64,000 nt of DNA from an uncultured Pseudomonadota bacterium. GTDB lineage: Bacteria > Pseudomonadota > Gammaproteobacteria > Methylococcales > Methylomonadaceae. Of the stretch, positions 1,924-48,225 are shown piece by piece. How positions within the stretch are numbered: position 1 is the first letter of the stretch; each line of letters starts with the position of its first letter. The stretch is from positions 1-64,000 of the forward strand of contig CAIQDI010000026.1 of the NCBI GenBank assembly GCA_903870545.1, written 5' to 3'. A program made the translations under genes and the position numbers. The notes under the pieces are model-generated. The model was not told where the DNA came from and did no database searches. It worked only from the letters and a program-made list of their open reading frames with translations.

Positions 1924-2712
1924 TTACGACTTTGTGAGAATGTTAAACGCCTCGGCAAGTTGGTCGGTTTGGGTTAAATTTAAAATTTCTGGCACGCTGC
2001 CCATTGCCTTAATTTGTCCGTGATGCAGCACAATTAAACGGTCTTCCGAATACACTTCGTCAATCAAATGACTCGCCCACAGCACCGCTATTTTTTCATC
2101 CGCCACCAACTGATGCACATAATCAACCAGACTTTTACGGCTAGGAATATCCAGCCCAACGGTCGGCTCGTCGAGCAATAATAACGCGGGTTTGTGCAAC
2201 AACGCCCGCGCAATTTCCACGCGCCGTTTGTGACCGCCGTTCAATTGCCGCACTTTTTCGCCGCGCCGTTCATACATTTGCAACCGTTCCAATTCTTCTT
2301 GAATGCGCTGTTTTGCCAATTTTCCGCTCATACCGTGCAATGCCGCGTGATAATTTAGATTCTGTAAAACCGTTAAATCCATGTCCAACGTGGTTTGTTG
2401 AAATACCACGCCCAACCGCGCCAAGGCTTGTCGTGATTGGGTTTGAATATCAAAACCACACAATTCAATGCGCCCCGCGTGCGTGTCGTACAAATGCGTA
2501 ATCAACGAAAATAACGTGCTTTTTCCCGCGCCATTGGCACCGAGTAAAATCGTGCATTCACCCGCTTGAATTTGAAAATTGACATTATCGAGAGCTTTTT
2601 TTTGTCCGTAAGAAAACGTTAAATTTTCAACCGTTAAAGCCCCCCTTTTTGAAGGGGGGTTGGGGGGATTTGCTTTAGTTCTATTGATTGAAATGACATT
2701 ATTTTTGTTCAT
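1924..2712 (-). CDS. ABC transporter ATP-binding protein, PQQ-dependent catabolism type
   Basis: 262-aa ATPase subunit resembling the TIGR03864 family, which is linked to PQQ-dependent alcohol dehydrogenase loci. Visible motifs are Walker A GANGAGKST, a signature region [16 protein letters not shown] (N in place of the usual S) and Walker B LLLLDEPT, followed by a switch histidine (ASHLID). The ATG at 2712 is preferred because it overlaps the stop of the beta-propeller gene as ATGA, which implies translational coupling; an in-frame ATG at 2733 is less likely. Residues ~14-25 (ANPPNPPSKRGA) come from a palindromic repeat inserted just before the nucleotide-binding domain. The permease normally expected next is not encoded downstream. 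Confidence 0.85.
   Translation of the reverse strand: MNKNNVISINRTKANPPNPPSKRGALTVENLTFSYGQKKALDNVNFQIQAGECTILLGANGAGKSTLFSLITHLYDTHAGRIELCGFDIQTQSRQALARLGVVFQQTTLDMDLTVLQNLNYHAALHGMSGKLAKQRIQEELERLQMYERRGEKVRQLNGGHKRRVEIARALLHKPALLLLDEPTVGLDIPSRKSLVDYVHQLVADEKIAVLWASHLIDEVYSEDRLIVLHHGQIKAMGSVPEILNLTQTDQLAEAFNILTKS
2639..2676 (-). repeat. GC-rich palindromic element inside the ABC ATPase gene
   Basis: On the coding strand it reads AGCAAATCCCCCCAACCCCC and continues into a C6/G6 hairpin (plus strand C run 2640-2645, G run 2654-2659) plus a second G run at 2662-2667. The same element, in the same orientation and frame relative to coding, occurs in lptA and sdhB. Here it encodes Asn-Pro-Pro-Asn-Pro-Pro-Ser-Lys-Arg-Gly near the N-terminus. 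Confidence 0.85.
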
Positions 2713-23708: not shown

Positions 23709-24686
23709 ATGAAAATCCATGATGACGCGCTACGGGAATTAGGTCTCGCAGTGATTCAAGTTGAAGCGCAAGCTATTTCTGATTTAGCGACACGAATCGA
23801 TGCCCATTTTGTGGCGGCGTGCAAAGTATTATTTTCCTGTAAAGGTCGAATTGTTGTGACTGGCGTAGGAAAGTCAGGACATATCGGCGGGAAAATTGCC
23901 GCGACCTTAGCCAGCACGGGAACGCCGGCTTTTTTCGTGCATTCGGGTGAAGCCAGTCACGGTGATTTGGGCATGATGACCGTGCAAGACGTGGTGTTAG
24001 CGTTATCGAATTCGGGCGAAACACCCGAAATTTTGGCGATTTTACCGTTGATAAAACGGCTTAACATTTCGCTGATTGCCTTAACGGGAAATTCTAATTC
24101 GACACTGGCAAAATTTGCCACGATTCATTTAGACGTTTCGGTTAAACAAGAAGCGTGTCCGTTAGGTTTAGCTCCGACTTCCAGCACCACAGCCGCGTTG
24201 GTGATGGGCGATGCGTTGGCGGTTTCGTTATTGGAAGCGCGTGGTTTTACCCGTGACGATTTTGCTTTTTCCCATCCAGGTGGACAATTAGGACGACGTT
24301 TATTACTGCGTGTCAGCGATATTATGCACACCGATTCCGCAATTCCAAAAGTAAGCGAACACACATCGGTCAGTGGCGCAATTTTAGAAATGACGACCAA
24401 GAAATTAGGCATGACGGCGATTATCAATTCAGAAAATGAATTGCTTGGCATTTTTACCGATGGCGATTTGCGGCGGTTACTGGGTAATAATTTGAGTTTA
24501 CCGAATGGTGAAATTCGCGAAGTTATGACCCAAAATAGCAAAGTGATTCACGCCGATTGTTTGGCGGCAGAAGCGATGCAAATTATGCAACAACAAAAAA
24601 TTAGTGCTTTGTGCGTGGTTGATGACCAGCAAAAAGTGTGTGGCGCGTTAAATATGCACGATTTAATTCGTGCGGGGATAGTTTAG
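23709..24686 (+). CDS. kdsD: D-arabinose 5-phosphate isomerase
   Basis: 325 aa. It converts ribulose 5-phosphate to arabinose 5-phosphate for Kdo. The SIS domain (GRIVVTGVGKSGHIGGKIAA, HSGEASHGDLGM) is followed by two CBS domains (~205-325). Metal/substrate residues of the KpsF/GutQ family are visible. It opens the LPS operon; kdsC begins directly after its stop. No clear Shine-Dalgarno precedes this ATG (the leader is CTATTTTTCT), yet no better in-frame start exists. Confidence 0.94.
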   Translation: MKIHDDALRELGLAVIQVEAQAISDLATRIDAHFVAACKVLFSCKGRIVVTGVGKSGHIGGKIAATLASTGTPAFFVHSGEASHGDLGMMTVQDVVLALSNSGETPEILAILPLIKRLNISLIALTGNSNSTLAKFATIHLDVSVKQEACPLGLAPTSSTTAALVMGDALAVSLLEARGFTRDDFAFSHPGGQLGRRLLLRVSDIMHTDSAIPKVSEHTSVSGAILEMTTKKLGMTAIINSENELLGIFTDGDLRRLLGNNLSLPNGEIREVMTQNSKVIHADCLAAEAMQIMQQQKISALCVVDDQQKVCGALNMHDLIRAGIV

Positions 24687-25217
24687 ATGATACCAGTTCG
24701 AGTAATGGAACAAGCCCGTCAAATTCGACTTCTGATTTTAGATGTCGATGGTGTTTTGACCGATGGAAAATTGTTTTTTGACCATTTGGGCAATGAATTT
24801 AAATCTTTTCACGCTCACGATGGTCACGGCATCAAAATGTTGCAACAAACCGGCGTGGAAATCGCGGTAATTTCGGGACGTGAATCGTTCATTGTCACGA
24901 AACGCATGGAAGAATTAGACGTGACGTTAGTTTATCAAAATCAACGTGATAAGCGTGCCGCATTTCAAGATTTACTGCGAAAATTAGACTTAACACCTGA
25001 GCAAGTGGCTTATGTTGGCGACGATGTAGTGGATTTGCCAATTATGACGCAAGTCGGTTTGGCGATTGCCGTGGCGGACGCGAATGAAGCGGTGACGGCG
25101 TGTGCGGATTGGTCTACACGATTAGGCGGCGGACTCGGTGCGGTGCGTGAAGTGTGCGATATGATTATGCAATCTCAAGATAATTTTGAGGCGATTTTGG
25201 CGGACTATTTACAATGA
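24687..25217 (+). CDS. kdsC: 3-deoxy-D-manno-octulosonate 8-phosphate phosphatase
   Basis: 176 aa. HAD-superfamily C0-type phosphatase that makes Kdo from Kdo-8-P. The nucleophile motif is LLILDVDGVLTDG, with FHAHDGHGIKML, VISGRES and the C-terminal YVGDDVVDLPIM. It abuts kdsD and overlaps lptC by 4 bp (ATGA). Confidence 0.96.
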   Translation: MIPVRVMEQARQIRLLILDVDGVLTDGKLFFDHLGNEFKSFHAHDGHGIKMLQQTGVEIAVISGRESFIVTKRMEELDVTLVYQNQRDKRAAFQDLLRKLDLTPEQVAYVGDDVVDLPIMTQVGLAIAVADANEAVTACADWSTRLGGGLGAVREVCDMIMQSQDNFEAILADYLQ

Positions 25218-25780
25218 TAGCCAAACATAACGCTTTTTATGGTTATGTGATTGCGTTGGCAATCGTGAGCAGTTTATTGGCAAAATGGTTGGTCAATGAG
25301 GACGTTGAACGTCGTGAAGCCGTCGCCCACAGCGCAGATTTTTTCAGTGTCGGTTATCAAAAATGGCAAATGAATGAGCAAGGCGGTTTGGGTTCTCATT
25401 TGACTGCCAATAAAATGGCGCATTACAGCGACGACGGCACGACACAATTAGAAAATCCGTTGATGTTTTTTTATAACGCGCCCAATCCCGCGTGGAAAAT
25501 TCATTCTGAATCAGGTCAATTATCAAAAGGCGGCGACTCGTTATTATTGAATGGCAAAGTCGAAATCGAACGTGCCGGCAGTTCGCAAGGACGCGAGTTA
25601 ATTATTCACACCTCAAATTTAACCGTTTCGCCGCAAACGTCTTTTGCGGAAACGAATGAATTTACCGAATTACGCAGCGGCAACAATATCACCACCGGTT
25701 TAGGCATGAAGGCGACGTTTAGTTCGCCAGTTCATTTGGAATTATTAGCAAAAGTACATGGCAACTATGAAAAAAAATAA
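25214..25780 (+). CDS. lptC: LPS export ABC transporter periplasmic protein LptC
   Basis: 188 aa. A single N-terminal membrane helix (FYGYVIALAIVSSLLAKWLV) anchors a periplasmic beta-jellyroll with NPLMFFYNAPNPAWKIHSES, GDSLLLNGKVEIER and LTVSPQTSFAETNEF, all family features. It hands LPS from LptB2FG to LptA. Its end overlaps lptA. Confidence 0.93.
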   Translation: MIAKHNAFYGYVIALAIVSSLLAKWLVNEDVERREAVAHSADFFSVGYQKWQMNEQGGLGSHLTANKMAHYSDDGTTQLENPLMFFYNAPNPAWKIHSESGQLSKGGDSLLLNGKVEIERAGSSQGRELIIHTSNLTVSPQTSFAETNEFTELRSGNNITTGLGMKATFSSPVHLELLAKVHGNYEKK

Positions 25781-26336
25781 ATCAAAAGCAAATCCCCCCT
25801 GCCCGCCTTTTCAAGGGGGAAAAGCAAAAATTCCCTTTTTGAAGGCGGTTGGCGGATTTGCTCTCAGCGCGTTAATTTGCAGCACGCCAACTTTTGCATT
25901 GGAAAGCGACGCAAAACAGCCAATTACGATTGATTCCAATGGCGCGACGTATGACGAAAAATCGGAACTCAGCACTTACACCGGAAATGTCATTGCCACG
26001 CAAGGCAGTATTCGGGTGAATTCCGACAAATTAGTGGTGCATTTCAAAGATGGCGAAGCTGAAAAATTAGTCTTCACCGGTAAAAATGCAAAATTCAAAC
26101 AAACGCCGAGCGCAGGTGGAAAAGACATTACCGGTCAGGCTTCCACCGGTGAATTTTATCCGAAACGTAATTTGCTGGTGTTAATCGATAATGCCACGGT
26201 TTGGCAAGGCAATGGAACGTATTCGAGCGATTATATTGAATACGATATTAAAACCTCGCTCGTCAAAGCGGGCGATAAAAATACTTCTGACAACAGTCAA
26301 CAGCGCGTCCACGTTGTCATTCAACCGAAATCCTAA
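25758..26336 (+). CDS. lptA: LPS transport periplasmic protein LptA
   Basis: 192 aa. The OstA-like domain is clear from ~residue 53 ([46 protein letters not shown]). It forms the periplasmic LPS bridge. The N-terminus is unusual: two inverted copies of a palindromic repeat encode [11 protein letters not shown] and FLKAVGGFA, so the signal peptide has a lengthened n-region and part of its hydrophobic core comes from the repeat (cleavage near TFA-L). The start is either 25758 (MATMKK) or 25767; both overlap lptC. Confidence 0.93.
25787..25862. repeat. Two inverted copies of the GC-rich palindromic element in lptA
   Basis: Copy 1 (25787-25820) begins AGCAAATCCCCCCTGCCCG and copy 2 (25830-25862) is its inverse, ending GGTTGGCGGATTTGCT. 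Both match the element in the ABC ATPase gene. They lie within the first 35 codons of lptA and leave the frame intact. Confidence 0.85.
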
Positions 26337-26338
26337 CG

Positions 26339-27061
26339 ATGATTCTCGCGGCGAAAAATTTACAAAAAAACTATAACAAACGCGCCGTGGTCAATGGCGT
26401 GACGTTGCACGTCAAAACGGGTGAAGTGGTGGGTTTGCTCGGCCCAAATGGCGCGGGGAAAACAACGAGTTTTTATATGTTGGTCGGTTTGATCAAAGCC
26501 GATGGTGGCGATATTACGCTCGATGAACAATCGATTACCCACATGCCGATGCACGTTCGCGCCACGAATGGCATTGGTTATTTACCACAAGAACCGTCTG
26601 TTTTTCGTAAATTATCGGTGGCTGATAATTTACGCGCGGTGCTGCAATTACGTTCTGATTTAAACGCGGGGCAAATTGAATTACAAATTATGGATTTAAT
26701 GGACGAATTCAGTGTGACGCATTTGAAAAATCAATTGGCGTTAAGTTTGTCGGGTGGCGAACGGCGGCGCGTTGAAATTGCTCGCGCTCTTGCGTCGAAT
26801 CCAAAATTTATTTTGCTTGATGAACCGTTTGCCGGCGTGGATCCGATTTCCGTTGAAGACATCAAAAAAATCATTCAACATTTAACCGAGCGTGGCATTG
26901 GCGTTTTGATTACGGAACACAATGTGCGCGAAACGCTCGACATTTGTCATCGTGCTTATATTTTGAGCGATGGCAAAGTGATTGCCGAAGGCAACGCGGA
27001 AGAAATTGTCGCGAATAAAGAAGTTCGTGATGTATATTTAGGCAAAAATTTTAGTCTGTAA
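26339..27061 (+). CDS. lptB: LPS export ABC transporter ATP-binding protein LptB
   Basis: 240 aa. Walker A is GPNGAGKTT at 35-43, the signature [15 protein letters not shown], Walker [14 protein letters not shown] and the switch His in [11 protein letters not shown]. It powers LPS extraction with LptF/LptG, which are encoded elsewhere. It starts 2 bp after lptA and the order lptC-lptA-lptB-rpoN is conserved in the class. Confidence 0.97.
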
Positions 27062-48100: not shown

Positions 48101-48132
48101 GTTTCAAGTCTCCGAAAATAAAAATTTAAATT

Positions 48133-48208
48133 TGTAGGGGTTCACTGCGTGAACCCGCCAATTACGAAAAGTAGTAGAAATAACGGGTTCACGCAGTGAA
48201 CCCCTACA
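48133..48208. repeat. 76-bp element with perfect 25-bp terminal inverted repeats
   Basis: The left arm (48133-48157, starting TGTAGGGGTTCACTGCG) and the right arm (48184-48208, ending GTGAACCCCTACA) are exact reverse complements, with a 26-bp spacer. It fills much of the ilvE-rdgC gap. The TGTAGGGG end is shared with the element at 50301. The size and structure suggest a MITE-like or BIME-like repeat. Confidence 0.88.
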
Positions 48209-48225
48209 CAATCAAATTGTGTGAA

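Follow-up and report, generated by a model that had tools for sequence, protein, structure and literature searches.

The window analysed here is the whole stretch of 64,000 nt taken from contig CAIQDI010000026.1 (GCA_903870545.1) of a lake methanotroph of the Methylococcales, whose genome (G000 hereafter) is a 2.68-Mb draft in 39 contigs. It contains lptC, lptA, lptB and rpoN in this order. The 3' end of lptC overlaps the start of lptA, likely an arrangement for translational coupling. LptA is essential in Escherichia coli. The product of lptA matches PF03968 as well as TIGR03002, the latter model covering residues 47-191 only, and it is the sole full LptA match in a protein search of its own genome; the second match there is the repeat-derived N-terminus of another protein. 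Two inverted copies of a short palindromic element lie at the beginning of the gene. The features are as follows, with element scores from R1, a model built from 26 hand-picked copies, and with type A designating short copies (R1 hit under 45 nt) and type B longer ones with an extra stem-loop:

25214-25780, forward strand: lptC (PF06835, E 7.7e-37; TIGR04409, E 1.8e-36)
25758-26336, forward strand: lptA ORF with a repeat-built N-terminus, 192 aa (TIGR03002, E 1.5e-39)
25767-25769, forward strand: most likely start codon of lptA, M4 of the ORF
25767-25898, forward strand: predicted signal peptide of 44 residues (MKKNK...STPTFA), from congener alignment, hydropathy and the AXA-type rule
25782-25821, forward strand: repeat unit 1, type A (53.8 bits, E 1.1e-14), coding for a charged, proline-rich n-region
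25831-25867, reverse strand: repeat unit 2, type A, degenerate and inverted (37.3 bits, E 4.6e-9)
25839-25841, forward strand: TTG inside unit 2, an alternative in-frame start read from the sequence, giving a 20-residue signal form
2640-2679, reverse strand: second copy of the element in the window (57.9 bits), in frame near the N-terminus of the ORF at 1927-2712 (reverse strand), a predicted ABC ATPase named from its sequence rather than by a family search

An earlier note on this DNA had LptA begin at 25758. The ORF does begin there, but the likely start is ATG 25767, because several out-of-genus relatives retain just that ATG, which shortens the signal peptide from 47 to 44 residues. Between 25758 and the mature N-terminus, the only in-frame ATG, GTG or TTG codons are ATG 25758, ATG 25767, TTG 25839 and TTG 25899. 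The first three each place the repeat-coded residues AVGGFA in the hydrophobic core, and the last is the mature N-terminus itself, so that a start there leaves no signal at all. By its own terms, the note would have been contradicted by translation that begins beyond the repeat and yields a different signal sequence; the DNA offers no codon for this. Since lptA is a single-copy gene and every start that keeps a signal includes AVGGFA, export of LptA would necessarily make use of the repeat-coded residues.

The predicted signal peptide is partly encoded by the repeat, as the note had claimed, and the details can be read from its parts. The n-region is extended to around 25 residues, mostly by unit 1; it is basic, rich in prolines and unusually long. 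Its net charge of 8 (script count), the uninterrupted run of 14 hydrophobic residues that follows and the small residues at positions -3 and -1 of the predicted cleavage site make up the anatomy of a Sec (SPase I) signal. Unit 2, read on the forward strand, codes for the end of the n-region and the first half of the h-region. The repeat supplies AVGGFA(L), i.e., 6-7 residues of the run; the note had placed FLKAVGGFA in the core, of which FLK belongs to the charged side. The part of the h-region that the repeat encodes contains two glycines, and its hydrophobicity is only moderate. Following the AXA-type rule, cleavage would occur at TFA/LESD, and the predicted mature protein begins with LESDAKQP, the motif at which 16 congeners lacking the repeat resume in the alignment. 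We rejected a lipoprotein reading of ALIC, which in our own reading is not a lipobox.

The signal peptides of 14 relatives lacking the repeat are 21-31 residues long, with a best 10-residue Kyte-Doolittle mean of 1.61-2.80 (G011 and G014, which share the sequence of G004, were left out as duplicates). The LptA form with the repeat scores 2.11. Without the repeat-coded residues the value is 1.34, below all 14 congeners, a score that describes simple excision and not the true ancestor, and the hydrophobic run is reduced to 8 residues. Searched with a tolerance of 3 mismatches, a 22-mer pattern of the element has one match in the window and none in 100 shuffles. In the whole genome of 2.68 Mb, its palindromic core is matched 59 + 63 times (122 in both directions, overlapping and two-strand matches of one palindrome being counted more than once), and the reversed control pattern has no match. 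Hence, the repeat in lptA is not there by chance.

LptA was found by protein search in all 61 genomes, and its N-terminus was read in 30 genomes with loci, 18 of the genus and 12 of other genera. Only two of the 18 congeners, G000 and G010, carry the repeat in lptA; the other 16 have ordinary signal peptides, e.g., MIKNKRIWLFAALLYSTCCVA, all followed by LESD. The repeat is absent from lptA at all 12 loci read in other genera. The alignment with close relatives that the note had proposed as a check thus identifies the insertion as the derived state. We built a tree from the 1,000 nt that follow the start of mature lptA (mature lptA and lptB DNA; 21 rows, including 3 outgroups). It groups G000 with G010 with moderate support (87/72) and places G005, which lacks the repeat, as their sister (99/100), so that one gain of the insertion suffices. 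The closest sequence to the ancestral remainder of G000 among those lacking the repeat is that of G008, NLALGALIFSSP.

G010 is a lake MAG assembled separately (locus L100, CAISXF010000044.1), in which the insertion is shared, the frame is open and the protein is 97% identical. Unit 1 differs between the two genomes at 2 of 38 bases, both changes being synonymous in our own reading of the alignment. Unit 2 differs at 7 of 34 bases (79% identity), with the changes I25G, P26F, V31A and F34L, and the 14-residue hydrophobic run is kept. Such drift with retention of hydrophobicity is the pattern that a signal peptide would show, in numbers that are small. Across positions 24258-27061 of the window, the two genomes are 99.3% identical in the first stretch and lptC and around 95% identical in lptA and lptB, a drop that suggests recombination between both lineages. 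A search of plasmids with the lptC-lptA DNA returned zero matches.

The protein search with LptA also matched further proteins through their repeat-derived N-termini. The first, of 530 aa and found in 11 of the 18 genomes, has no NCBIfam match and one sub-threshold Pfam match; calling it an outer-membrane barrel is a guess. It has the repeat at its N-terminus in G000, with close forms in G014 and G001, and lacks it in G010 (MTKRFCLFLFVVSTTNAFA), in G011, G007, G004 and G005, which have similar forms, and in G013, G012 and G006. A multihaem cytochrome has the repeat in G001 only, among the 9 genomes with the gene. The ApbE lipoprotein has the full pair in G001, nothing in 15 of the 18 genomes, and a remnant of the second part just before the lipobox in the other two (PFLKGAGGFAL in G010, PFLKGAAGFAL in G000). 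Hence, for all four proteins, LptA included, there are orthologues without the insert in relatives. Judging by these alignments, at least four exported proteins have a signal start rebuilt from one and the same element.

The unit has the consensus TTAAAGCAMATCCCCCCTGCCCCCCTTCAAAGGGGGGA, its M taken from the alignment, and the second half is palindromic. The R1 model has 58 matches in G000 at E≤1, 37 of type A and 21 of type B. Of the 37 type A copies, 27 lie within an ORF that is at least 150 aa long and has an upstream ATG (six of the ten exceptions belong to one cluster on contig C15); for type B copies the count is 2 of 21. As 2,420 of 3,000 random 40-nt positions in the same stretches fall within such ORFs, type A is found in genes at about the frequency expected from coding density, and type B is excluded from them. 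Genes with in-frame copies encode MurG (two units; L073), NadE (two units; L083), HypF (L072), CysS (L095), KdsB (L128), ModC (L079), Csy2 (L086), Csy4 (L090) and RapA (L114), and others hit encode a pyruvate dehydrogenase E2-like protein, a solute-binding protein and an ABC auxiliary lipoprotein. In-frame insertions thus reach essential enzymes and two proteins of the type I-F CRISPR system (Csy2 and Csy4). In NadE, two units occupy the same linker in G000 and in G015 (L138), in different reading frames, which suggests a reusable insertion-tolerant site. Copies are found in 16 of the 18 genomes of the genus (E≤1e-4). Across the family, stricter filtering at E≤1e-8 leaves copies in 26 of 151 genomes.

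In G010 and G015, copies of the element form the terminal inverted repeats of an ORF of 111-119 aa with a DUF559 domain. The unit is around 425-450 nt long, and its ends are nearly identical for more than 40 nt. PD-(D/E)XK Vsr-like nucleases are described as often containing DUF559 (PMC12907096). Candidate minimal mobile units of around 450 nt, each a DUF559 ORF bounded by inverted copies, are at 1422-1871 of L238, 1423-1871 of L237, 1423-1847 of L248, 1451-1902 of L241 and 329-781 of L244. PF04480 has 13 matches in 6 of the 18 genomes, 9 of them full length or nearly so (E≤1e-28). All nine of these genes have an R1 match within around 100 nt on at least one side, and six are flanked at both ends, in (-)..(+) order, by type A or B copies with E≤0.001; for the others, L246 has a fragment only on the second side and L239 and L243 are flanked on one side. 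A DUF559 remnant at L245 also has the element on both sides, and the weak PF04480 matches at L242, L247 and L249 have no flanking R1 match. A rough estimate of the chance of finding the element beside DUF559 at one locus is 0.007. Since all nine genes adjoin copies and six lie between inverted ones, the element seems to be the terminus of a small mobile unit that carries DUF559. The association is plain in these genomes, and from it we infer that DUF559 may mobilise the element.

Some observations complicate this picture. G001 has 41 copies and no DUF559, which counts against a simple story, and PF04480 has no match in G000 itself. What G000 does have, at the end of contig C15 (L227, 3542-5462), is a cluster of six copies, including (-)(+) pairs of 155-172 nt; at their inner ends, these pairs carry sequence that matches the leader and the beginning of DUF559 (MLPYSETSQKR). 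They resemble MITE deletion derivatives of the DUF559 unit, and, as in MITEs, the inverted ends of the element are common to a larger gene-carrying unit. No target-site duplication is obvious in the element flanks, as judged by eye on the printed flanks. The pair in lptA is in (+)(-) order, opposite to the (-)(+) ends of the DUF559 unit, as are the other signal-peptide pairs. We also considered a Y1 transposase of the RAYT type as general mobiliser. PF01797 was found in 10 of the 18 genomes and has no match in G015, G003 and G016, which have 40, 12 and 10 copies of the element, and this candidate was rejected.

Taken together, we regard it as highly probable that an inverted pair was inserted in lptA, was kept in frame and now provides a repeat-derived signal peptide that is put to use. 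The palindromic mobile element would have entered just past the lptA start codons in the common ancestor of G000 and G010, in frame, taking the place of the last part of the former n-region and the first part of the former h-region. Translation from ATG 25767 would now give a precursor in which most of the basic, proline-rich n-region derives from unit 1. Its h-region would be composite, with a first half (AVGGFA) contributed by unit 2 and an ancestral second half (LSALIC). Export would proceed through Sec and end in cleavage at TFA/LESD, leaving mature LptA unchanged; expression of the gene and a need for the repeat-coded residues are likewise presumed from sequence. The element itself probably spreads as the palindromic end of the unit of around 450 bp with the Vsr-like nuclease, if DUF559 is its mobiliser. 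Its reuse in three more signal peptides could be explained by a site that tolerates insertions and by a peptide, K-rich and then F-L-K-x-V-G-G-F-A, that may work as a signal start.

The insert might instead be a tolerated passenger, with LSALIC alone supporting export and the repeat residues adding nothing. Signal peptides do tolerate much, and an RPE in the guanylate kinase of Rickettsia has been described as neutral or slightly detrimental (PMC2229807). We nevertheless consider this unlikely, given that excision leaves an 8-residue run with a best-10 mean of 1.34, under all 14 congeners without the repeat, and that ApbE of G010 and G000 has largely lost the first unit and kept PFLKGA(G/A)GFAL. 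Translation could also start at TTG 25839, which is in frame, is present in G010 too and would yield an ordinary-sized signal peptide of 20 residues with the same best-10 hydropathy of 2.11, unit 1 being then an untranslated leader. No Shine-Dalgarno-like run is visible by eye 5-10 nt upstream of this codon, a G-rich run being around 20 nt away. Furthermore, the ATG region that overlaps lptC is conserved across the genus, and unit 1 is open and has only synonymous changes between G000 and G010. These observations make a start at TTG 25839 improbable, and the signal peptide that it would give is still repeat-derived.

The earlier note had also pointed to a strong stem in the mRNA start region, and one may ask if the element acts mainly as such a stem, with a regulatory effect on the translation of lptA or on the lptC-lptA junction. 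Positions 25740-25900 of G000 do fold at -55 kcal/mol (z -4.34, with 0 of 200 shuffles as good). Yet the predicted stem begins around 20 nt downstream of the likely start ATG 25767, and the same stretch in G010, which has the insertion, folds no better than expected for its composition (z -1.14; 25 of the 200 shuffles fold equally well) and so does not support a conserved stem; the insertion is, besides, missing in 16 of the 18 congeners. As the stem is strong in G000 and not in G010, the protein is the better-supported role. The stem itself is probably a by-product already decaying in one of the two lineages, and there is very little chance that it is the main function. The draft state of the genome, in 39 contigs, could finally raise the suspicion of an assembly artefact or a pseudogene. 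The separately assembled G010 carries the insertion with a differing sequence, which makes an artefact very unlikely, and the frame and mature LptA are intact in a single-copy gene placed between lptC and lptB; we give this explanation next to no weight.

This kind of event is already known, since a signal peptide built from a repeat was predicted earlier by Delihas 2007 and the Rickettsia palindromic elements (RPE) offer a further precedent. In Yersinia, the signal peptide predicted for YPO1552 is reported to consist in part of an RU-2 (YAPL) repeat, and relatives of this protein elsewhere have unrelated signal sequences (Delihas 2007, PMC2759123). YPO1552 is a putative exported protein of 144 aa, whereas the present case concerns the conserved, single-copy LptA, with an insertion placed on a phylogeny, 16 congeners without the repeat and three more recurrent cases. 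RPE are described as in-frame insertions in many conserved genes, forming multiple families and being also intergenic (PMC2229807, PMC10969869). Our element resembles them as a dispersed palindrome in many copies (58 at E≤1) that lies in frame within conserved genes. It is set apart by description, the sequences being presumably unrelated: the host belongs to the Methylococcales, the unit of around 40 nt is often single or in an inverted pair, and there is the DUF559 link. With the REP/REPIN-RAYT systems, it shares short palindromes, single or in inverted pairs, that flank a small dedicated gene. Unlike in those systems, the partner gene encodes DUF559 and not a Y1 transposase, as would define a RAYT, and the unit sits within genes rather than being extragenic. 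Searches on intragenic palindromes of methanotrophs or Methylococcales and on DUF559 with repeats gave titles and abstract beginnings, with few subscription papers among them and with PMC2817692 and PMC3116915 on REP/REPIN-RAYT systems, in which we recognised no description of the element. As far as these literature listings show, what is new is the organism group, the LptA target with its placed insertion and its orthologues lacking the repeat, the recurrence of the event across four exported proteins, and the link to DUF559.

Tentatively, and with somewhat less than even confidence, one may see the DUF559 nuclease with its palindromic ends as a counterpart of REPIN-RAYT that seeds peptides within genes, including a ready-made signal start that has repeatedly replaced export signals. 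If so, in a genus of free-living methanotrophs, selfish DNA would have taken the place of export signals, that of an essential envelope protein included. LptA itself gives a phylogenetically placed case of single origin, with sister genes lacking the repeat, where part of the predicted export signal of a core protein of outer-membrane biogenesis comes from selfish DNA, and the event is repeated independently in three further exported proteins. The distinction between in-gene palindromes that are tolerated and those that are put to use becomes directly testable by reporter export assays. To our knowledge, the mobility of protein-coding palindromes is unexplained, and the link to DUF559 offers a candidate enzyme for this class.

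The window has two other repeats. At the contig start (positions 1-747), a 249-nt unit is present in three tandem copies, the first sharing 93% identity with the second and 82% with the third. At positions 48123-48218 there is a 35-nt inverted repeat, 91% complementary and with 26 nt between its arms, a palindrome distinct from the element described here.
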